A stretch of 64,000 nt of DNA, taken from positions 1 through 64,000 of the forward strand of contig BAYV01000011.1 in NCBI GenBank assembly GCA_000710935.1. The letters run 5' to 3'. The notes under the pieces are model-generated. The model was not told the DNA's origin and ran no database searches. It was given only the letters and a program-made list of their open reading frames with translations. Positions within the stretch are counted from its first letter, which is position 1, and each line of letters opens with the position of its first letter. The position numbers were made by a program, and so were the translations under genes. Shown in pieces: positions 47,099 through 57,513 of the stretch. The stretch comes from Iodidimonas nitroreducens. Its GTDB lineage: Bacteria > Pseudomonadota > Alphaproteobacteria > Sphingomonadales > Rhodothalassiaceae.

Positions 47099-47239
47099 GG
47101 GCAGGGGGCTTTCTGATGGTTTTGAGACGACTCTTCTTGCTGAATATGGTGGAGTGTTGAAGCGACTTGCCCCAATATGCAATGGCAAGTTCCGGGGTGC
47201 GCGAAAAAAATCACCCATGTCGAAAGGGAAGGGGGGCTG

Positions 47240-47866
47240 ATGTCGTCTGTGAGTTTTGCCGCATTGTTATGTTCGCGTTTGTGCCATGATCTTGTCAGCC
47301 CGGTGGGGGCTTTGTCGAACGGGCTTGAGGTTCTGGCCGATGAGCATGATGATGATATGCGCCTGCAGGTGCTGAGCCTTTTGGATCAAAGTGCGCGGCA
47401 AACCGCCAATCGCCTGCAATTTTTCCGCTTGGCCTTTGGGGCCGGTGGCGGCTTTGGCAAGATGGTCGATCCGCGCGATGGGGAAAAGGCCTTGAGGGCT
47501 TTTTTGCAGGATTCCAAAACAACGCTGGAATGGCAGATCCAAAGCCCCAGCCTGCCCAAGGATGCGCTGAAATTAATTCTTAATCTGGCTTTATTGGCCG
47601 GAGAAGGGCTGGTGCGCGGCGGTGTTTTGCGGATTGAAAGCACCGGAACCGAGGCGGGCCAGGTCATCGAAGTGTCTGCATCCGGGCCGCGTGTTCTGTT
47701 TTCCTCCGCCGCCCGCGATGCCCTGGAAGGCACGCTTTCTGAAGCAGATCTGGAGCCGCGCACGGCACCGGCTTATCTGGCGGGGATCGTCGCACGAGAT
47801 ATTCCGGCTCGGTTGCAAATCGATTCGTCGCAAGAAGACCGGATCCTCTTTCGCATCTCCCTTTGA
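47240..47866 (+). CDS. chpT: ChpT-type histidine phosphotransferase
   Basis: Alphaproteobacterial phosphotransferase that passes phosphate from CckA to CtrA and CpdR. 208 residues: dimerising helical hairpin with the phospho-His motif CSRLCHDLVSPVGALSNGLE (in part; His in HDL), then a degenerate ATPase-like domain. ATG 47240 has AAGGGAAGGGGGG upstream; longer frames are not conserved. It stands directly before cheA, separated by a terminator-like hairpin. It may be the cell-cycle ChpT or a chemotaxis-dedicated relative. Confidence 0.85.
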   Translation: MSSVSFAALLCSRLCHDLVSPVGALSNGLEVLADEHDDDMRLQVLSLLDQSARQTANRLQFFRLAFGAGGGFGKMVDPRDGEKALRAFLQDSKTTLEWQIQSPSLPKDALKLILNLALLAGEGLVRGGVLRIESTGTEAGQVIEVSASGPRVLFSSAARDALEGTLSEADLEPRTAPAYLAGIVARDIPARLQIDSSQEDRILFRISL

Positions 47867-48091: not shown

Positions 48092-51000
48092 ATGGACGAC
48101 CTTCTGAATGAGTTCCTGACCGAAACCGCGGAAAGCATCGATGTGGTCGATGTGGAACTTGTGAAGCTGGAACAAGACCCCAATAATAAAGGCGTTCTGG
48201 ATAATATTTTCCGCCTTGTGCACACCATCAAGGGCACCTGCGGCTTTCTGGGCCTGCCACGGTTGGAATCGGTAGCCCATGCATCAGAAAATGTGCTGGG
48301 CAAATTCCGGGATGGCGAATTGCTGGTCACCCCCGAAGCGGTGACCGTGGTTCTGGAAAGCCTTGATCGAATCAAGGAAATCCTCAGTGGTCTTGAACAA
48401 ACAGAAACCGAGCCCGAAGGCGACGATGGGCCGCTGATCGGCCGTCTTGATGCCATTGCCGAAGGAAAGGGCGCCGCGGCCAAGCCTCCCTCTCAGCCTG
48501 CTACAGCGCCGGAAATCGTTGCTTCAACCGAGCCGGATGCGTCGCTGGCGGATGCCGGCCTTGATCCTGATGCTGGCCTTGGGCGTCCGCTCAAACCCGG
48601 CGAGGTGGCCCTCGATGAGCTTGAGCGTGCCTTCATGGAGGCCCCCGGCCCCGATGATGAGCCTGATCAGCCATCCGCGCCCCAAGCAACGCCCAAGCCG
48701 ATGGCCGGGGCGCGCCTGTTCGAGCGCGCAGGGGGCGAGGATGCGATTGCGGTGATGGCGCATTTACTGGCCAATCGCCTGCCGCGTCATGCGAAAATCG
48801 GCAGTTTTTTCAGCGTTATCCCCGATGATTTGCGGAAAGCCAAATTTCTTGGCCTGCTCACCGCGCTTTTCAAGGAAGATGAAAGCTCATCCAATAATGT
48901 GATGGCATCGATCATCGGGCAGCCGGGCTTTGGCAATGATCAATTCGATGTGCTGGCCGCTGAGATGAAGGCCGTTTTCAAAGAGGTGAAGCTGGCGGCG
49001 GATGTGTGTGATGATGCCGTTATGAGCCTTGAACTGGTGCGCGATGCGGCGCTGGCGGCCTCGGAAAAGCATGTGACCAAGGTGAAGGCCAGTGCTGGCG
49101 CCGCCAATGATGATCATGATCATGGTGGGGGTGGATCGGTTGAAAAACGCACATCCCAATCCATTCGGGTTTCCGTGGATCTGCTTGAAGATCTGATGAA
49201 TATGGTCAGCGAACTGGTGCTGACCCGCAATCAGCTTTTGCAGATGGTGCGCGAAAAAGAAGACAGCGAATTCACTGTGCCGATCCAAAGGCTTTCGCAA
49301 ACCACCACGGAATTGCAAGAAGGGGTGATGAAAACCCGGATGCAGCCGATTGGCAATGCCTGGGCCAAGCTGCCAAGGATCGTGCGCGATCTGTCGATGG
49401 ATCTTGATAAGAAGATCGAATTGGATATGCGCGGCTCGGAAACCGAGCTGGATCGGCAGGTTCTGGAATTGATCAAGGACCCGCTGACCCATATGGTCCG
49501 CAATTCGGCCGATCATGGCATTGAAACCCCGCCCGAACGGGTGGCGATGGGCAAGACCGAGCATGGCACCATCGTTTTGAACGCCTATCATGAAGGCGGC
49601 CATATCATCATCGAAATCCGCGATGATGGACGCGGTATCGCCGCCGATAAAATCCGCCAGAAGGCGCTGGAAAAAGGGCTGGCATCGGAAGCCGAGCTTG
49701 CCAATATGTCGGAAGCTCAGATCCAGAAATTCGTTTTCCACGCAGGCTTTTCAACAGCTGCGGCGGTGACCAGCGTATCCGGGCGTGGTGTGGGCATGGA
49801 TGTGGTGCGCACCAATATCGAAAAAATTGGCGGTACCATCGATATGGTATCGGTGGAAGGCAAGGGCACGACCTTCCAGATCAAGATCCCCCTCACCCTG
49901 GCCATCGTTTCGGCCCTGATCGTTTCTGCTGCTGGCGAGCGTTTCGCCGTTCCCCAGATCAGTGTTCTGGAATTGGTGCGGGCTGCTGATGGCAGCGATC
50001 ATCGTATCGAGCGGATCAAGAACACCCCGGTTTTGCGGCTGCGTAATCGATTGCTGCCGCTGGTTTATCTCAATGATATTCTGGGCTTTAAAAAATCTGC
50101 TGATGGCGCATCGGATCAGAAGGCCCAAGATGCTGATAAGAAAGTAGCGGATAAGGATGCCCCTTCGGATGATTTCATCATCGTCAGCCAGGTGGGGGCG
50201 TTCACCTTCGGTATCGTTGTTGATCAGGTTTATGATACCGAAGAAATCGTAGTGAAGCCGGTGGCCCCGATCCTCAAGGATCTGTCGATTTATTCGGGCA
50301 ATACCATTCTGGGTGATGGCAGCGTGATCATGATTCTCGATCCCAATGGCATTGCCGAGCGGACCAATTCCGGCGTGGTTCAGGAAAGCGGTGCTGTAGA
50401 CGAAAAGGCGGCTGCCAATCAATTGACCATCAAGGATGAATCGGAATCACTGCTGCTCTTTGGGGCGGGGGCGAAAAGCCGCAAAGCCGTGCCTTTGCCC
50501 CTAGTGGCGCGCCTTGAAGATATCGAAGTGGAGAAGATCGAACTCTCGGATGGCCGCCATGTGGTGCAATATCGTGGGGCTTTGATGCCGATCGTACTGG
50601 CGGAGGGGCTTTCGGGCCTCAAAACCGAGGGGCGGCAGGCTGTTTTGGTGTTCACCGATGGCGATTATACCATGGGCTTGGCGGTGGATGAAATTCTCGA
50701 CATCGTAGAGGATCATGCCGATATCAAGATCGTTTCCGGCAAGCCGGGGATGGTGGGTTCGGCGATCATCGGCGGCAAGGCGACCGAGGTGATCGATGTC
50801 GCCTATTATTTAAGTCAGGCTTTTGACGATTGGTTGAAATCCCGCGATCAGAATAGCGGTGTTGCCCCCGAACGCGGCACCCGCATTCTGCTGATTGATG
50901 ACAGTGCTTTCTTCAGAAACATGCTGAAACCGCTTTTGAAGGTGGCTGGCTATGATCTCACCTGTGTTGATCATGCGCAGGCCGCCATCGATCTGCGCGA

Positions 51001-51256
51001 CAAGGGTGAGCATTTCAATCTGATCATTTCCGATATCGATATGCCCGGCATGGATGGCTTTGAATTGGCGGGTATTTTGAAAAAGGATGGTCACTGGGCG
51101 CACACCCCGATGGTGGCCCTGTCGAGCTTTTCCAGCCCCAAACATCTGGAACGCGGGCGGGCTGTGGGCTTTGATGACTATATCGCCAAATTCGACCGCA
51201 AGGCGCTTTTGGAATGTTTGTCTCAGCAATTAAAGCTGCAAGGCGATGCTGCCTAA
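48092..51256 (+). CDS. cheA: Chemotaxis histidine kinase CheA with globin-like insert, two CheW-like domains and receiver
   Basis: 1054 residues. Order: Hpt domain (about 1-105, phospho-His44 in LVHTIKGTCG); Pro/Asp-rich linker; globin-like domain (about 206-326); Asp/His/Gly linker; dimerisation domain (about 356-420); HATPase (about 430-600; NSADHG at 471-476, DDGRG, GRGVGMDVV); CheW-like P5 (about 605-755, with a Lys/Asp-rich insert near 667-692); a second CheW-like domain (about 790-910); receiver (about 930-1050; Asp936/Asp937, phospho-Asp981 in SDIDMPGMDG, Lys1033). The P2 region normally found before the dimerisation domain is replaced by the globin-like part. Followed by cheW-cheY-cheB-cheR. 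Confidence 0.95.
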   Translation: MDDLLNEFLTETAESIDVVDVELVKLEQDPNNKGVLDNIFRLVHTIKGTCGFLGLPRLESVAHASENVLGKFRDGELLVTPEAVTVVLESLDRIKEILSGLEQTETEPEGDDGPLIGRLDAIAEGKGAAAKPPSQPATAPEIVASTEPDASLADAGLDPDAGLGRPLKPGEVALDELERAFMEAPGPDDEPDQPSAPQATPKPMAGARLFERAGGEDAIAVMAHLLANRLPRHAKIGSFFSVIPDDLRKAKFLGLLTALFKEDESSSNNVMASIIGQPGFGNDQFDVLAAEMKAVFKEVKLAADVCDDAVMSLELVRDAALAASEKHVTKVKASAGAANDDHDHGGGGSVEKRTSQSIRVSVDLLEDLMNMVSELVLTRNQLLQMVREKEDSEFTVPIQRLSQTTTELQEGVMKTRMQPIGNAWAKLPRIVRDLSMDLDKKIELDMRGSETELDRQVLELIKDPLTHMVRNSADHGIETPPERVAMGKTEHGTIVLNAYHEGGHIIIEIRDDGRGIAADKIRQKALEKGLASEAELANMSEAQIQKFVFHAGFSTAAAVTSVSGRGVGMDVVRTNIEKIGGTIDMVSVEGKGTTFQIKIPLTLAIVSALIVSAAGERFAVPQISVLELVRAADGSDHRIERIKNTPVLRLRNRLLPLVYLNDILGFKKSADGASDQKAQDADKKVADKDAPSDDFIIVSQVGAFTFGIVVDQVYDTEEIVVKPVAPILKDLSIYSGNTILGDGSVIMILDPNGIAERTNSGVVQESGAVDEKAAANQLTIKDESESLLLFGAGAKSRKAVPLPLVARLEDIEVEKIELSDGRHVVQYRGALMPIVLAEGLSGLKTEGRQAVLVFTDGDYTMGLAVDEILDIVEDHADIKIVSGKPGMVGSAIIGGKATEVIDVAYYLSQAFDDWLKSRDQNSGVAPERGTRILLIDDSAFFRNMLKPLLKVAGYDLTCVDHAQAAIDLRDKGEHFNLIISDIDMPGMDGFELAGILKKDGHWAHTPMVALSSFSSPKHLERGRAVGFDDYIAKFDRKALLECLSQQLKLQGDAA
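48707..49069 (+). other. Globin-like (group I truncated haemoglobin type) domain inside CheA
   Basis: CheA residues about 206-326. By eye, ARLFERAGGEDAIAVM matches the truncated-haemoglobin start (LFExLGGExAIxxVV); GSFFS matches the C-D FF motif; RKAKFLGLLTALF matches helix E (RxKQxAFLTxAFG); QFDVLAAEMKAVFKE matches helix G (HFDAVVEHLxxxLRE); and VRDAAL the last helix. The B9/B10 Phe-Tyr pair is Leu-Ala, and the proximal His position (helix F) falls in NNVMASIIGQPG, which has no His. So it is probably a haem-free or very altered globin fold. A divergent P2 domain is the alternative. Confidence 0.65.
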
Positions 51257-51286
51257 GCGTGAACATAAGATCAGGAAGGGTTGAAA

Positions 51287-51739
51287 ATGGCATCTTCATT
51301 AGGACATGAATTCGTGACCATGCGGCTCGAGGGCCAGCTTTTGGGCATCCCCGTACTTTCGGTGCAGGATGTTTTGAGCGCACAGAAAATCACCAGCATT
51401 CCCTTGGCCCCGGCCTGGGTTTCGGGTGTTCTTAATCTGCGTGGGCGGATTGTTACGGCGATCAATATGCGGGAACGTATGGGCTTTGGGAAACGCACTG
51501 ATGGTGGTAAAGATATGAGCATCGTCGTTGAATTTCGTGGCGAGCCTTATAGCTTGCAGATTGATCGCGTGGGTGACGTTCTCAATCTTGAGAAAGAGGT
51601 TATGGAAAAAAATCCAGTGACCATGGATCAGCGTTGGCGGGAGGTGAGCCGAGGGATTTATCGGCTTGATGGCGAATTGCTGGCGATCCTCGATGTTGAA
51701 ACGGTGCTGGGCAGCGCAGAATCTTCGGCTGCCGCTTGA
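51287..51739 (+). CDS. cheW: Chemotaxis coupling protein CheW
   Basis: 150-residue CheW domain that links receptors to CheA. FVTMRLEGQLLGIPVLSVQDVL and GVLNLRGRIVTAINMRERMG are characteristic (parts quoted). AGGAAGGG lies 7 bp before ATG 51287; an earlier TTG at 51281 is less likely. 30 bp after cheA. Confidence 0.94.
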   Translation: MASSLGHEFVTMRLEGQLLGIPVLSVQDVLSAQKITSIPLAPAWVSGVLNLRGRIVTAINMRERMGFGKRTDGGKDMSIVVEFRGEPYSLQIDRVGDVLNLEKEVMEKNPVTMDQRWREVSRGIYRLDGELLAILDVETVLGSAESSAAA

Positions 51740-51779
51740 GGGCGTAAGGCGTGATCGCAACAGGGAACGGAGCCGAACT

Positions 51780-52145
51780 ATGAAATCCTGCCTCGTGGTA
51801 GATGATTCAAAAGTCATTCGACGGGTGGCGCGTCGCATTCTTGAGGAAATGGATTTCTCAATTGAAGAAGCGGTTGACGGGAAAGACGCTCTGGAAGCCT
51901 GCGAACGGATGCTGCCTGATGTGGTGTTGTTGGATTGGAACATGCCGGTGATGGATGGCCTCGAATTTCTCAAGGCCATTCGGGGGCGCGCCAATCTCAA
52001 ACAGCCCATTGTGGTTTTTTGCACCACGGAAAACGACATGAACCATATTCGTTTGGCCATGGAAGCCGGGGCCGATGAATATATCATGAAGCCTTTTGAT
52101 CGTGAAATTATTGAAGCCAAATTTGCTCAAGTCGGATTGATGTAG
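51780..52145 (+). CDS. cheY: CheY-like response regulator
   Basis: Single receiver domain, 121 residues: acidic pair DD near residues 8-9, phospho-Asp in LLDWNMPVMDG, Thr in FCTTEND and Lys in MKPFD. Likely the flagellar-motor output of CheA, or a partner of the CheA receiver. The start at 51780 follows a GGGAACGGAG stretch. Confidence 0.93.
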   Translation: MKSCLVVDDSKVIRRVARRILEEMDFSIEEAVDGKDALEACERMLPDVVLLDWNMPVMDGLEFLKAIRGRANLKQPIVVFCTTENDMNHIRLAMEAGADEYIMKPFDREIIEAKFAQVGLM

Positions 52146-52157
52146 ATTAACCGGATT

Positions 52158-53456
52158 GTGAATGTGTCCAGTATTTTGAATGGCTCTGATCGAACACAGG
52201 AAAACGCGAAAGTGAAAGATCCCTTCCGTGTGATGGTTGTTGATGACAGCGCTGTCATTCGCGGTTTTCTTGTGCGTTATCTTGAGCAGGATGGAGCCAT
52301 CAAGGTTGTTGCCACGGCATCGAATGGCATCATGGCCTTGCGCACGATGAACACGGCCAAGCCCGAAGTCGTTGTTTTGGATATCGAAATGCCGGAAATG
52401 GATGGCATGACCGCCTTGCCGAAAATCCTTGAGGCCGATCCCGATGTGCGGGTGGTGATGGCTTCAACCCTGACCCGGAAAAATGCGGAAATCTCCCTGC
52501 GCGCCCTGCAGCTTGGGGCTTCTGATTATGTGCCAAAGCCGGAAACCACCCGGGCGGTGAATGCCAATATCGATTTCCGCCAGGAATTGGTGGAAAAGGT
52601 CAAGGTTTATGGGGCAGCGCGGCGACGGGCGCTGCGTCAGGAAATGCCCGGCGGTCAAACCCCCGGGGGCGTGCCCAGCCTGCGTGAAGGGGCGGCAACA
52701 ACCGCGCCGGTAAGGGCACGGTCAAGCTATCAGGTGGTGGCGCGCCGGGGCGATGAGCCAGCATCCCGGCCCGCTATGGCGCGGCCCGGGCGTGGGGCCG
52801 AGCCATCGGCCGGAGCGCTGCGAACCCTGCGGGTTGGCGAGCGCGAGATCACCTTGCGCGCGCCATCCAAATCACGGCCCGAAATTCTGGTGATCGGCTC
52901 GTCCACAGGGGGGCCACAGGCCTTGATTCAGGTGTTTACCGGGATCAAGGATGCGGTGAAGCATCTGCCCGTTCTGGTGGTTCAGCATATGCCCGCCACC
53001 TTCACCGCTATTCTGGCCGATCATTTGGGGCGGGCTTCGGGCCTGCCGTCTTCTGAGGCCAAAGATGGCGAAAAGCTGTTGCCCGGGCATATCTATGTCG
53101 CCCCCGGTAATCATCATATGACCATGCGTCGTGGTGAAGCGGGGATTGTTTTGGGGCTTGATCAAAACGAACCGGAAAATTTCTGTCGGCCGTCTGTGGA
53201 TCCCATGTTCCGCAGTGTGGCCGGTCTTTATGGCGCACGGACATTGGCTGTGATCTTGACCGGAATGGGACATGATGGCTTGCGCGGCGCGCGAGACCTC
53301 GTGGGAACCGGTGCCACGCTGATTGCCCAGGATGAGGCTTCGAGTGTCGTATGGGGGATGCCAGGGGCGGTGGCCACGGCGGGATTATGCAGCGCGGTGA
53401 CTCCGCTGTCCGAAATCCCGGATATCATCATAAAAAGCCTGAGAGGCAACCCATGA
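52158..53456 (+). CDS. cheB: Chemotaxis methylesterase/glutamine deamidase CheB
   Basis: 432 residues from GTG 52158: N-terminal receiver (Asp29/Asp30, phospho-Asp75 in VVVLDIEMP), an Arg/Pro-rich linker of about 100 residues, and the methylesterase domain with catalytic GSSTGG, QHMP and GMGHDG. GTG 52212 is an alternative start close to the conserved part. Overlaps cheR by four bases. Confidence 0.94.
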   Translation: MNVSSILNGSDRTQENAKVKDPFRVMVVDDSAVIRGFLVRYLEQDGAIKVVATASNGIMALRTMNTAKPEVVVLDIEMPEMDGMTALPKILEADPDVRVVMASTLTRKNAEISLRALQLGASDYVPKPETTRAVNANIDFRQELVEKVKVYGAARRRALRQEMPGGQTPGGVPSLREGAATTAPVRARSSYQVVARRGDEPASRPAMARPGRGAEPSAGALRTLRVGEREITLRAPSKSRPEILVIGSSTGGPQALIQVFTGIKDAVKHLPVLVVQHMPATFTAILADHLGRASGLPSSEAKDGEKLLPGHIYVAPGNHHMTMRRGEAGIVLGLDQNEPENFCRPSVDPMFRSVAGLYGARTLAVILTGMGHDGLRGARDLVGTGATLIAQDEASSVVWGMPGAVATAGLCSAVTPLSEIPDIIIKSLRGNP

Positions 53457-54298
53457 AGCCCCAGGATTTTGATTTCCTCAGCAGCCTTTTGAAGCGGCGT
53501 TCGGGTTTGACCCTCAATCCCGATAAGGTTTATCTGCTTGAATCGCGATTGACACCGCTGGCGCGGCGCTCGGGCATGGATAGTCTCGATGCCTTGATCG
53601 CGGAATTACGGCGCTCGGGCTCGGAAACCCTGTTGCGGGATGTGACCGAGGCGATGACCACGAATGAATCCTTTTTCTTTCGTGATCGCACCCCATTCGA
53701 TCTGTTTCGTGATCAGGTTCTGCCGATGTTGTATCAACGTCGGTCCACGACCAAAAAAATCCGCATCTGGTGCGCGGCCTGTTCTACGGGGCAGGAGCCT
53801 TATTCCCTTGCCTTTGAATTAAAAAAGCAGGAAGCCAAATGGCGGGATTGGAGCATCGAGATTGTGGGCACCGATATATCGCGGCCTGTTTTGCAAAAGG
53901 CACGGGATGGTGTTTATTCGCAATTCGAGGTGCAAAGAGGCCTGCCCATCCAGCTTTTGATGAAACATTTCACCCAAGAGGGCGATATCTGGCGTCTGTC
54001 AGAAGATATCCGCAAGATGGTCACCTTCAGGGAATTCAATCTGCTCGATAATTTTGCCGCCCTTGGCAAATTTGATGTGATCTATTGCCGCAATGTTCTG
54101 ATTTATTTCGATCAACCCACAAAATCGAATGTGCTGGATCGGATGCGCGGCCTTTTGCCAACAGATGGCACCCTGTTTTTGGGGGCGGCTGAAACGGTTT
54201 TGGGGATCACCGATCGCTTTCGCCCGGTGCGTGGCCAGCGCGGCATGTATCTGCCTTCGGATGCAGAGCCTAATCTGATGGCCGCCGTTGGGGGCTAG
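53453..54298 (+). CDS. cheR: Chemotaxis protein methyltransferase CheR
   Basis: SAM-dependent methylation of chemoreceptor glutamates. 281 residues: N-terminal helical domain (SGLTLNPDKVYLLESRL), TTNESFFFRD, SAM-binding AACSTGQEPYSLA, and CRNVLIYFD. ATG 53453 overlaps the cheB stop (ATGA). The cluster lacks cheD and any MCP gene inside the window. Confidence 0.95.
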   Translation: MKPQDFDFLSSLLKRRSGLTLNPDKVYLLESRLTPLARRSGMDSLDALIAELRRSGSETLLRDVTEAMTTNESFFFRDRTPFDLFRDQVLPMLYQRRSTTKKIRIWCAACSTGQEPYSLAFELKKQEAKWRDWSIEIVGTDISRPVLQKARDGVYSQFEVQRGLPIQLLMKHFTQEGDIWRLSEDIRKMVTFREFNLLDNFAALGKFDVIYCRNVLIYFDQPTKSNVLDRMRGLLPTDGTLFLGAAETVLGITDRFRPVRGQRGMYLPSDAEPNLMAAVGG

Positions 54299-54498: not shown

Positions 54499-54633
54499 CA
54501 AACAACATTAGTTTTTCGCGAGCCACAGTCACGTTCCCGTTGAAGGGGCGATGCGGCATCCGTTCAGCATGGCCGTTTGGCCGGGTTGATCCAGTTTTGT
54601 TTGTTTGCACACACAACCTCTTGTGGGGAAAGC

Positions 54634-57513
54634 ATGTTTAATCATCATCAAAGACGCCAAACTCTTTTGGCCCTGGTTTCGTCGCTGGCCATCGCTGCGT
54701 GCAGTGACAGCACCAGCGAATTGATATCTGAAGGCGGCACCGGTGACGGCACACCACCGCCAACGACCACGCCCCCCCCCACGAATGGCGGTGGTGATGG
54801 CGGCGATCCGCCCCCCAGCGAGGGTGCGTGCCCCGCGGGTACCAGCGAACTGACGATTGCCGGACAAACCCAATGCGAAATCCAAGGCACCTTGACCGGG
54901 GATGTGACCCTGACAGCCAATAATATCTATAGCCTGAATGGCGGGGTCTTTGTGGGTGAAGATCTGGGGCCCGATGCGGCAAATCCCATTGCCGGGCGCA
55001 GCGCGGCCAGCCTCACCATCGAACCGGGCACAGTGATTTATGGCCAGACAACGGATGCGATTCTTGTTGTATCCCGCGGTTCAGAAATTTTCGTGAATGG
55101 CACGGCCACCGAACCCGTGGTGATGACCAGCGCCGAAGATCTGGGGCTGGCAGCCGAATTTGGCCGCACCCAGAGGTCGATTTTTACCGGCAACGCCACC
55201 AATGATCCCAATACCGGGGAATGGGGCGGGTTCATCGTCAATGGTCGGGCACCGATCAATGTGTGCGGTGATAGCGGCGAGATTTGCGTGAAGCTGGGCG
55301 AAGGCGATAGTGGCGAATTTGGCGGCAATGATCCCGATGATGATAGCGGCCAGATCAATTTCTTGCAGATCAAATATACCGGTTTTGAAATCACCCCGGG
55401 CAATGAGCTGAACGGCTTGGCGCTGCAGGGCGTGGGCCGGGGCACCGAAGTTGATTTCGTGCAGGTGCATAATAATGCCGATGATGGTGTTGAATTCTTT
55501 GGCGGCACGGTGGATGCGAAGCATATCGTGGTCACCGGCTCGGATGATGATGCCATTGATTGGACCGATGGCTGGCAGGGTCGCTTGCAATTCGGTCTGG
55601 TTTTGCAAAATCCCAATCAGCCGAATTCTGATCGCGGGATCGAAGCGGATAATTTTGAAGAAAATAACGACTTCACCCCGCGTTCGCAGCCGATCCTTTC
55701 CAATCTGACCCTGATTGGTGCTGCTGATAGCGGCATCGGTGATACCGGGATCGTTTTGCGGCGCGGCACCGGGGTGCAGCTTTATAATGCTGTAGCCAGC
55801 AATTTTGCGGATGCCTGCCTCGATCTGGATGATCCCGCAACCTTTGCTCAGGCTGATCCGCAAAACGCCACGGCAGCGGGGGCGGGCCTGCGCATTGGTC
55901 ATACTCTGCTGGATTGCGCGGCCCCTATTGAGAACGAAACCGATGATACGACTTTCGGCCTGCAGGCCTGGTTCGAAGCCGGGGCTGGCAATGCCATCGG
56001 TGCCTCATCGCTTTCAGGCTTTATCAATGGCCCGGTCGAATCATCAGCGGCTGCCTTTGATATTGCCAGCGCCGATTCATTCTTTGATGCGGTCGATTTC
56101 ATCGGGGCCATCCCGAATGGAGAGGCCCGTACAGCGCAGCAGGAAGGCAATTGGACCCTGGGCTGGAGCTTTGGGCTCAATCCCGATCCATCCTGCCCGA
56201 ATGTGGTGGGCGTGACCCCAACCGCCGATGGGGATAGCTGCATCCTGGAAGGCACCTTGACCGGAACCGTGCGGCTGGTTGCCGGGCTGGATTACTTCCT
56301 GCGCGGGGGTGTGTTTGTGGGCGAAGATCTGGGCCCCGATCCGGCCAATCCCATTGCCGGGCGCACGCCGGGCGAATTGATCATCGATGCGGGTGTCACC
56401 TTGCAGGGCGAGAATACCTCATCGATCCTCGTGGTGTCTCGTGGCTCGAAAATCTTTGCCAATGGTACGGCGAGCGCGCCGGTGGTGATGACGGCAACCA
56501 ATCCTGAAACCCGCAATGTGGATCTGGATACCGGCCTTTGGGGCGGTTTCATTGTCAATGGCCGGGCACCGATCAATGTGTGCGGTGATAGCGGCGAGAT
56601 TTGCGTGAAGCTGGGCGAAGGCGATAGTGGCGAATTTGGCGGCAATGATCCCGATGATGATAGCGGCCAGATCAATTTCTTGCAGATCAAATATACCGGT
56701 TTTGAAATCACCCCGGGCAATGAGCTGAACGGCTTGGCGCTGCAGGGCGTGGGCCGGGGCACCGAAGTTGATTTCGTGCAGGTGCATAATAATGCCGATG
56801 ATGGTGTTGAATTCTTTGGCGGCACGGTGGATGCGAAGCATATCGTGGTCACCGGCTCGGATGATGATGCCATTGATTGGACCGATGGCTGGCAGGGTCG
56901 CTTGCAATTCGGTCTGGTTTTGCAAAATCCCAATCAGCCGAATTCTGATCGCGGGATCGAAGCGGATAATTTTGAAGAAAATAACGACTTCACCCCGCGT
57001 TCGCAGCCGATCCTTTCCAATCTGACCCTGATTGGTGCTGCTGATAGCGGCATCGGTGATACCGGGATCGTTTTGCGGCGCGGCACCGGGGTGCAGCTTT
57101 ATAATGCTGTAGCCAGCAATTTTGCGGATGCCTGCCTCGATCTGGATGATCCCGCAACCTTTGCTCAGGCTGATCCGCAAAACGCCACGGCAGCGGGGGC
57201 GGGCCTGCGCATTGGTCATACTCTGCTGGATTGCGCGGCCCCTATTGAGAACGAAACCGATGATACGACTTTCGGCCTGCAGGCCTGGTTCGAAGCCGGG
57301 GCTGGCAATGCCATCGGTGCCTCATCGCTTCAGGTGCCCCAAGGCGGGGGCAAGGCTTTCGTGAATGGTGCGAATGAAGCCCAACGCCCGGCTGAAGACC
57401 CATCTGCCATCGATCCTTTCTTTGACAGTGTCGATTTCATCGGTGCCATCGAAAGCCCCGAGGCGGATTGGACAGCAGGCTGGACCATCTGGCTCGATCG
57501 TCCTGCCAATTAA
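54634..57513 (+). CDS. Predicted surface lipoprotein with beta-helix-like duplicated repeats
   Basis: 959 residues from MFNHHQRR. A lipobox (LAIAAC, Cys23) marks it as a lipoprotein; a Thr/Pro/Gly-rich spacer follows (about residues 35-65). The rest is two related units of about 439 residues that begin with CP...GTLTG and GGVFVGEDLGPD, contain WGGFIVNGRAPINVCGDSGE and DDGVEFFGGTVDAKHIVVTG (parts quoted), and look like a right-handed beta-helix. 256 residues of the two units are identical at DNA level. An upstream frame from 54577 lacks a signal. I know no exact function; it precedes a TonB receptor and T2SS genes, so secretion to the cell surface is likely. Confidence 0.85.
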   Translation: MFNHHQRRQTLLALVSSLAIAACSDSTSELISEGGTGDGTPPPTTTPPPTNGGGDGGDPPPSEGACPAGTSELTIAGQTQCEIQGTLTGDVTLTANNIYSLNGGVFVGEDLGPDAANPIAGRSAASLTIEPGTVIYGQTTDAILVVSRGSEIFVNGTATEPVVMTSAEDLGLAAEFGRTQRSIFTGNATNDPNTGEWGGFIVNGRAPINVCGDSGEICVKLGEGDSGEFGGNDPDDDSGQINFLQIKYTGFEITPGNELNGLALQGVGRGTEVDFVQVHNNADDGVEFFGGTVDAKHIVVTGSDDDAIDWTDGWQGRLQFGLVLQNPNQPNSDRGIEADNFEENNDFTPRSQPILSNLTLIGAADSGIGDTGIVLRRGTGVQLYNAVASNFADACLDLDDPATFAQADPQNATAAGAGLRIGHTLLDCAAPIENETDDTTFGLQAWFEAGAGNAIGASSLSGFINGPVESSAAAFDIASADSFFDAVDFIGAIPNGEARTAQQEGNWTLGWSFGLNPDPSCPNVVGVTPTADGDSCILEGTLTGTVRLVAGLDYFLRGGVFVGEDLGPDPANPIAGRTPGELIIDAGVTLQGENTSSILVVSRGSKIFANGTASAPVVMTATNPETRNVDLDTGLWGGFIVNGRAPINVCGDSGEICVKLGEGDSGEFGGNDPDDDSGQINFLQIKYTGFEITPGNELNGLALQGVGRGTEVDFVQVHNNADDGVEFFGGTVDAKHIVVTGSDDDAIDWTDGWQGRLQFGLVLQNPNQPNSDRGIEADNFEENNDFTPRSQPILSNLTLIGAADSGIGDTGIVLRRGTGVQLYNAVASNFADACLDLDDPATFAQADPQNATAAGAGLRIGHTLLDCAAPIENETDDTTFGLQAWFEAGAGNAIGASSLQVPQGGGKAFVNGANEAQRPAEDPSAIDPFFDSVDFIGAIESPEADWTAGWTIWLDRPAN
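55246..56013 (+). repeat. Direct repeat, copy 1 (768 bp, apparently identical)
   Basis: Offset 1317 bp (439 codons) from copy 2 at 56563-57330. Compared by eye, the two copies match over their full length, and both encoded peptides are identical. Flanking parts of the two units are clearly diverged. Confidence 0.85.
56563..57330 (+). repeat. Direct repeat, copy 2 (768 bp)
   Basis: Second copy of the repeat at 55246-56013, in the same frame of the lipoprotein gene. The match stops sharply at both ends (first differing bases 55245/56562 and 56014/57331). Confidence 0.85.

Follow-up and report, generated by a model that had tools for sequence, protein, structure and literature searches.

What occupies the space between the phosphodonor and dimerisation domains of a chemotaxis kinase that has no P2 domain? 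This question is raised by the cheA gene (48092..51256, forward strand), a single open reading frame of 1054 residues in the window, that is, in the whole stretch of 64,000 nucleotides that was analysed, taken from contig BAYV01000011.1 of Iodidimonas nitroreducens. The original prediction had proposed a truncated-globin-like domain without its haem site at about residues 206-326 of this CheA. Sequence, profile and fold comparisons agree on such a domain and set its limits at residues 207-324 (48710..49063, forward strand), and together the sequence evidence and the predicted models confirm it as a group I truncated-globin domain, homologous to truncated haemoglobins and predicted to be haemless.

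When residues 207-324 alone were compared with the PDB by phmmer, nine of the ten matches were group I truncated haemoglobins, the best at an E-value of 0.0037. A profile of 29 rows, made of the window and 28 relatives from the same order, all haemless by reading, reached 4xdi at E 1.4e-10; 25 chains were listed with E no higher than 1, and 24 of them are truncated globins. Furthermore, hhalign of this profile against 15 free-standing truncated globins gave 99.3% probability and an E-value of 1.2e-20 over 117 columns, a significant profile-profile match obtained with a profile made here and not with HHpred. The window protein alone shows no Pfam Bac_globin match, the curated cut-off not being reached, and among the 29 sequences of the order profile this model finds 17 at E up to 1.

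The predicted structure points the same way. AlphaFold2 returned helices only, in a globin-like order, with a mean predicted local distance difference test score (pLDDT) of 90.7 from a 37-row alignment, and helices only, with a mean pLDDT of 90.5, from an alignment of the 28 haemless rows. Since the haemless-only alignment gives the same globin model, a fold forced by haem-competent rows is ruled out. On Foldseek, all 50 titles listed per table name globin or haemoglobin for both models (one of them, 5vmm, is IsdB with human haemoglobin), with no E-value below 0.001 for either. With VIA-align the predicted models gave a best Z of 13.6 and 2.5-2.7 Å over 114-115 residues to 1dly, a Z near 13 being reachable by helical models.

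The place of the domain in the kinase was also foreseen correctly, as Pfam sets P1/Hpt at residues 3-95 (48098..48376, forward strand; PF01627, E 4.5e-16) and the P3 dimerisation domain, H-kinase_dim, at residues 355-415 (49154..49336, forward strand; PF02895, E 1.4e-15). P2, said to be missing, has no match in this CheA among the P2/CheY-binding models of Pfam, even at E up to 10. The P2 fold is an alpha/beta one, and no alpha/beta fold was seen in the globin segment, to which DSSP assigns helices only in both AlphaFold2 models. A P2 or ferredoxin-like fold, tried as a candidate, is thus ruled out by the Pfam null result and the all-helical models, which match globins in the PDB. The whole protein has an F5-type layout, Hpt - linker - globin - linker - H-kinase_dim - HATPase_c - CheW - CheW - REC, and the domain set of class F5 (Hpt, H-kinase_dim, HATPase_c, duplicated CheW, receiver) is complete in Pfam. 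In the text available of PMC10782961, the F5 class is given as Hpt, H-kinase_dim, HATPase_c, two CheW and a receiver without P2, and the window CheA therefore shares with it both the domain set and the lack of P2. According to the same text, AlphaFold models of CheAs without P2 show an extended, unstructured P1-P3 region, whereas the window CheA has a folded globin there.

We next consider the haem site. The position names B10, CD1, E7, E11 and F8 are those that we take to apply from trHbN. The window globin has Ala227 at B10, where the Tyr had been reported missing, Phe240 at CD1, where the Phe is kept, Arg248 at E7 and Phe252 at E11. The proximal His was likewise said to be absent, and the F region of the window globin indeed contains none; a gap in the alignment of the F helix leaves some doubt as to which residue corresponds to F8. 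Among 44 rows of the order, none has a His in the F8 column, and His stands elsewhere in that stretch in 7 of the 44. These rows comprise 32 of a first group (orderA) and 12 of a second (orderB, family f8), L057 and L084, which are the same gene, both being counted. At B10, orderA has Ala, Ser, Gly, Glu or Cys in all 32 rows, and orderB has His at B10 together with Phe at F8 in all 12. Another His, that at the position of H224, is shared by nearly all rows of the order (31 of 32 in orderA, 12 of 12 in orderB) but occurs in only 1 of 48 other rows, and this near-invariance in the order and rarity elsewhere indicate that the CheA globins of the order share a constraint of their own. H224 belongs to a set of conserved polar residues of these globins (D217, H224, R229, K249, E314, R317). 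Compared with group I truncated haemoglobins (trHbN, PF01152 Bac_globin), the CheA domain has the same fold and helix order, the GG motif after helix A, Phe CD1 and profile similarity over the full length, but it lacks the proximal His and Tyr B10, has Phe at E11 and, unlike the free-standing proteins, is embedded in a kinase. To judge from these residues, the haem site has been lost in the window domain.

How widely is this layout kept? By F5-like we mean a core similar to that of the window CheA (E up to 1e-100), the trees being drawn within the sampled set with no reference F5 set. Of 147 genomes sampled in the order, 70 had such a core, and a search of these CheA homologues found the globin segment in 61 of the 70, some as contig-end fragments (6/7 in family f1, 3/3 in f2, 29/29 in f5, 2/2 in f7 and 21/24 in f8). 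The layout is hence common in the order, which goes beyond what had been predicted. The globin is absent in seven F5-like genomes (G020, G003, G010, G017, G052, G047 and G053), and the CheA of G097, a fragment, was counted neither as globin-bearing nor as globin-less. In G002 (L231) the P1-P3 linker is as long as in the globin CheAs and looks helical with no match to the globin hidden Markov model; it is perhaps a globin degenerated beyond recognition. G020 (L245) is from the same genus as the window; its CheA, though without a globin, keeps the flanking linker motif described below. On a 31-row tree of the order this CheA groups with those of the window and its congener L031 (support 97/92), inside globin-bearing relatives (98/98), and by its position it is a loss of the globin, a natural deletion. 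In f8 as well, G053 and G047 have no globin beside globin-bearing sisters (93/89 and 100/100).

Where the domain is present, it is well conserved. The window and L031 globins are identical at 84 of 118 residues with no gaps, with an omega (ratio of nonsynonymous to synonymous divergence) of 0.08, and in the stretch just before the globin the same two proteins share 3 of 16 residues. Among the pairs compared, omega was computable in 4 of 6 and lay at 0.05-0.08, rough values given that synonymous divergence (dS) is high in most pairs and not computable in some. Over 24 CheAs the mean pairwise identity is 0.57 in the globin, with a gap fraction of 0.00, against 0.18 and 0.31 in the adjoining linkers. 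The globin domain is under purifying selection.

The counterparts outside the order bear on where the domain came from. In a sample of 385 genomes of Alphaproteobacteria, a mixed profile matched 93 genomes and the earlier profile 28; all matches in frames of at least 366 residues were examined, and shorter frames, some at contig ends, were mostly left out. CheA frames with a globin were found in 21 genomes of 13 families, the window genome included, CheA identity being taken from P1 and P3 motifs in the same frame or, for G204, from Pfam. The F5-like core is present in 137 of the 385 genomes, among them 20 of these 21; in the remaining one, G340, the CheA is cut by the contig end. In 8 of the 21 genomes, from 7 families, the globin at the P2 position keeps both Tyr B10 and His F8 (rows L062, L167, L169, L168, L153, L100, L114 and L159; genomes G449, G204, G268, G240, G236, G371, G340 and G352), so that, beyond the original prediction, the domain has haem-competent equivalents in this position outside the order. 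L159 (G352) has an unusual Tyr at CD1 and His at E11, and G371 has one CheA of each sort, haem-competent and not, its record giving 10% contamination. In the seven of these eight CheAs that were scanned (L100 excluded), Bac_globin stands beside other CheA domains in the same protein and scores 38.7-69 bits per single copy, the cut-off being 21; L122 scores 124 bits over two copies. From their residues and scores these CheAs apparently carry a working haemoglobin. A further 13 P2-position rows outside the order are without Tyr B10, His F8 or both; L155b has His at F8 but Phe at B10, and in L162, L161 and L160 the domain is hardly recognisable. L110 was considered as a haem-competent CheA and ruled out, as it is an N-terminal globin followed by PAS repeats, the whole frame (L282) matching Bac_globin, PAS and MCPsignal.

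Several side observations were made on the same sample. L167 (G204) and L155 (G226) have one globin between P1 and P3 and another inserted within the first CheW domain, which it divides. Of the two globins of G226, the former has no Tyr B10, and both Tyr B10 and His F8 are kept in the latter. A truncated globin also stands at the C-terminus of CheW proteins, by Pfam CheW and Bac_globin in L059, L063, L071 and L158, and with CheW by Pfam and the globin by profile search only in L163 and L164. Of these, L059 and L071 keep Tyr B10 and His F8, L063 has Phe B10, and L158, L163 and L164 are degenerate. In L282 (G430) the truncated globin is followed by PAS repeats and the signalling domain of a methyl-accepting chemotaxis protein (MCP), and L098 (G338) starts like L282 and is cut by a contig end. 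Family f111 has short CheA frames, L171 (G520) and L154 (G443), of 660 and 776 residues, and in G520 the core match crosses one in-frame TAG.

Across the phylum, 299 genomes gave CheA frames with a globin only in the window genome and G182, among the matches listed, and in this sample the layout therefore looks alphaproteobacterial. Frames above 450 residues in G708, G741, G658, G742 and G662 were set aside as not CheA by reading of the translation. A search with the L062 CheA found no globin CheA on plasmids: the matches in its 14 records, 12 of them from Azospirillum, begin only at L062 residue 304.

Given haem-competent CheA globins in other families, the probable ancestor of the window domain is a haem-binding globin that CheA captured, and its reuse without haem would resemble that in RsbR of the stressosome. 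The reading that we prefer, with a rough probability of 0.5, is that a captured gas-sensing globin lost its haem in the ancestor of the order and was kept as an accessory regulatory module of an F5-type CheA; the original prediction had similarly supposed a reuse of the fold as a protein-binding or sensory part of the kinase. According to this proposal, a haem-binding globin would have been captured by an F5-type CheA as a built-in input for gas (oxygen or nitric oxide), and the domain would have been retained when haem was lost in the ancestor of the order's CheA globins. Flexible linkers would connect the truncated globin to the phosphodonor P1 on one side and to the catalytic core on the other, and in this position the haemless domain could bind a non-haem ligand or a protein partner. 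Such binding would alter the mobility of P1, or its access to the kinase core or to response regulators. Since several lineages have dropped the globin, it would tune signalling rather than enable it. A bolder version, which we advance only tentatively, is that scattered Alphaproteobacteria have a CheA with its own haemoglobin, an oxygen or nitric oxide sensor acting directly on P1 that by-passes or biases the receptor array, and that in the window's order this sensor exchanged the haem-bound gas for another ligand but kept its connection to the kinase.

The trees are compatible with a single capture. In a quick core tree of 72 rows, from which L100 and L114 were dropped as too short and which holds no globin-less CheA of the order, the 25 globin rows of the order form one clade (Shimodaira-Hasegawa approximate likelihood ratio test, 98) and the haem-competent rows fall in several places. 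On the tree of the domain itself (92 rows), haem state has to change 5 times and context 8 times; for this count, unlike the others, L155b and L063, with Phe B10 and His F8, were scored as haem-competent. One clade of 39 P2-position CheA globins was not rejected by the approximately unbiased test (p-AU 0.65), and the tree held to one clade was 7.4 log units better than the free quick tree. This test used 63 rows, with two groups of the order thinned and without L162, L160, L161, L155b, L106, L163, L164 and L057.

A number of points nevertheless weigh against the preferred reading. The rows left out of the one-clade test include four long-branch CheA globins at the P2 position. Both the core tree and the domain tree fit more than one number of captures, and as the latter is built on few columns, with long branches and weak support for its deep forks, the globin may have been captured independently more than once. 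A single capture is also opposed by the linker motif, which is found in 17 of 17 labelled CheAs of the order against 0 of 13 labelled globin CheAs of other families. As the trees are unrooted, that haem binding came first is a direction which we infer. The ligand, the partner and the effect of the domain on the kinase are likewise proposals. Within the order, presence and absence of the globin need 6 changes on the 31-row tree, and the globin-less family f4 groups with the globin-bearing f8 (91/88), so that a single gain would require loss in f4 too; taken together, either loss is frequent or gain was not single. Many F5-like CheAs, a congener's included, have no globin. The roughness of omega counts on the same side.

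The main rival holds that the domain took over the job of P2 as a docking site for CheY or CheB that speeds phosphotransfer, with no sensing. Indeed, the globin takes the place of the absent P2 between P1 and P3 and is flanked by variable linkers, and loss of haem with the fold kept, together with the conserved polar set, fits a binding surface. However, the globin-less F5-like CheAs examined show a low-complexity, disordered-looking linker there and no globin, and haem-competent versions elsewhere point to a sensory origin. Moreover, another candidate for docking, a conserved motif in the linker outside the globin, is kept by most CheAs of the order. In the window this motif, RPLKPGEVALDELERAFMEAPGPDDE, spans residues 165-190 (48584..48661, forward strand) upstream of the globin and is identical to that of L031 at 24 of 26 positions. 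With the approximate form PGEVSLDELEAAFxxAPGPD, it occurs in the P1-P3 linker, elsewhere disordered-looking, of 68 of 101 distinct F5-like CheA frames, namely in 31 of 37 unlabelled globin CheAs (of the six without it, L058 belongs to the order) and in 20 of 34 globin-less F5-like CheAs, twice in 4 of the 34, besides the labelled ones given above. It may be more general than the globin, and it has the look of a docking peptide whose partner might be a response regulator. On balance we regard docking by the globin as unlikely.

Less probable still is that the domain is a relic, a spacer or decaying remnant with no specific job. The globin was lost in G020 and in two f8 members and is hardly recognisable in some other families (L162, L161, L160), as a remnant might be. 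However, a remnant would sit poorly with omega at 0.05-0.08, the gap-free alignment with a congener, the near-invariant residues specific to the clade, the far more variable adjoining spacers and the retention of the domain in 61 of the 70 genomes of the order.

We give very little credence to the possibility that haem or another tetrapyrrole is still bound, through a non-canonical ligand such as H224. In its favour, almost every sequence of the clade has this His, all 12 orderB rows have a further His at B10, and a globin with swapped ligand sites is described in the available part of PMC4476040. H224 stands, however, at B7, one turn from B10, the proximal ligand has no replacement, and Phe at E11 and Arg at E7 of the window domain should fill the pocket. 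That the segment is no globin and its helical pattern a chance resemblance, for which the single window sequence without a Bac_globin match, the absence of Foldseek E-values below 0.001 and a Z near 13 might speak, has next to no probability and is ruled out by the profile, profile-profile and fold comparisons, which agree on truncated globins with full coverage.

How does the preferred reading, a captured globin kept without haem as a regulatory module, compare with known systems? The closest parallel is RsbR, and we would liken the CheA domain to it as a non-haem regulatory globin, in an analogy of working and not of descent. As far as PMC4976288 is available, it describes a non-haem RsbR globin in the Bacillus stressosome and a haem-binding RsbR in Vibrio brasiliensis, so that a signalling globin with haem and haemless forms in related proteins is common to both cases. 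The RsbR globin is, in that text, N-terminal on a STAS protein, whereas the CheA globin is of the truncated type and lies inside a histidine kinase; the RsbR domain 2bnl aligns to the CheA globin model at Z 9.2, a value within the range that helical models reach by arrangement alone, which is a further reservation. Globin-coupled sensors such as HemAT, in the part of PMC13401364 available, also couple a globin to chemotaxis signalling, but in them the sensor globin forms the N-terminal part of a receptor or of an output enzyme, and the CheA globin is internal, after Hpt. An N-terminal globin with an output domain defines those sensors, and the CheA globin, which does not have that arrangement, is nearest to truncated globins. 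According to the accessible text of PMC7542364, ethanol binding by the HemAT globin does not involve its haem, so that sensing by a globin independently of haem has a precedent. The Bac_globin, PAS and MCP protein of Corallococcus coralloides, in the portion available of PMC6194562, is likewise a chemosensory truncated-type globin, but is a receptor.

No description of a globin in CheA or CheW was found among the titles and abstract starts listed from the open-licence literature, several of the lists being capped (for example at 30 of 73 and at 20 of 266 matches). The main text of PMC10782961, as available, has zero occurrences of globin, heme or haem, and the available parts of PMC3770913 and PMC4720485 contain no CheA globin, the only 'CheA' match in the latter being the surname Cheatham. 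The scores of Bac_globin in the haem-competent CheAs exceed the cut-off, and the architecture is therefore probably to be found in automatic databases by now. What is new here are the haem-competent CheA globins at the same place in other alphaproteobacterial families, the two-globin CheAs and the globin-bearing CheWs.

The remaining domains of the window CheA are HATPase_c (P4) at residues 463-602 (49478..49897; PF02518, E 1.4e-18), two CheW stretches, of which the best (P5) covers residues 608-756 (49913..50359; PF01584), and a C-terminal receiver at residues 932-1041 (50885..51214; PF00072, E 4.8e-17). The gene is part of a cluster in the order HPTransfase - cheA - cheW - cheY - cheB - probable cheR, all on the forward strand, as are the domains just listed. 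A ChpT-like HPTransfase (47177..47866; PF10090, E 1.8e-27) lies directly upstream of cheA, which is followed by cheW (51281..51739; PF01584, E 2.8e-32), a cheY-like single receiver (51777..52145; PF00072, E 5.6e-30), its start chosen inside the frame 51666-52145, cheB (52158..53456; Pfam CheB_methylest and Response_reg) and a probable cheR (53351..54298), named by eye from its translation, with the frame start unrefined. Beyond the cluster, the region 54577-57513 encodes what is probably a surface protein of large size. Two stretches inside it are almost the same (long identical peptides recur in two antisense frames), which suggests a recent internal duplication. This region is followed by a TonB-receptor-like gene and type II secretion-like genes, named by eye.

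According to the abstract of the 2023 CheA survey, in the text available of PMC10782961, CheA, unlike other histidine kinases, has no sensor domain and relies on receptors. Given that related CheAs keep an apparently working haemoglobin, CheA may in some bacteria have a built-in sensor, and if the globin proves to be an input, haem-competent and haemless CheA globins alike would be exceptions to this rule. Furthermore, intact, haemless and deleted versions are present in related bacteria, down to one genus, and form a comparative system that makes two questions testable: whether gas sensing can enter chemotaxis at the kinase itself, and how a haem sensor becomes a haemless regulator.

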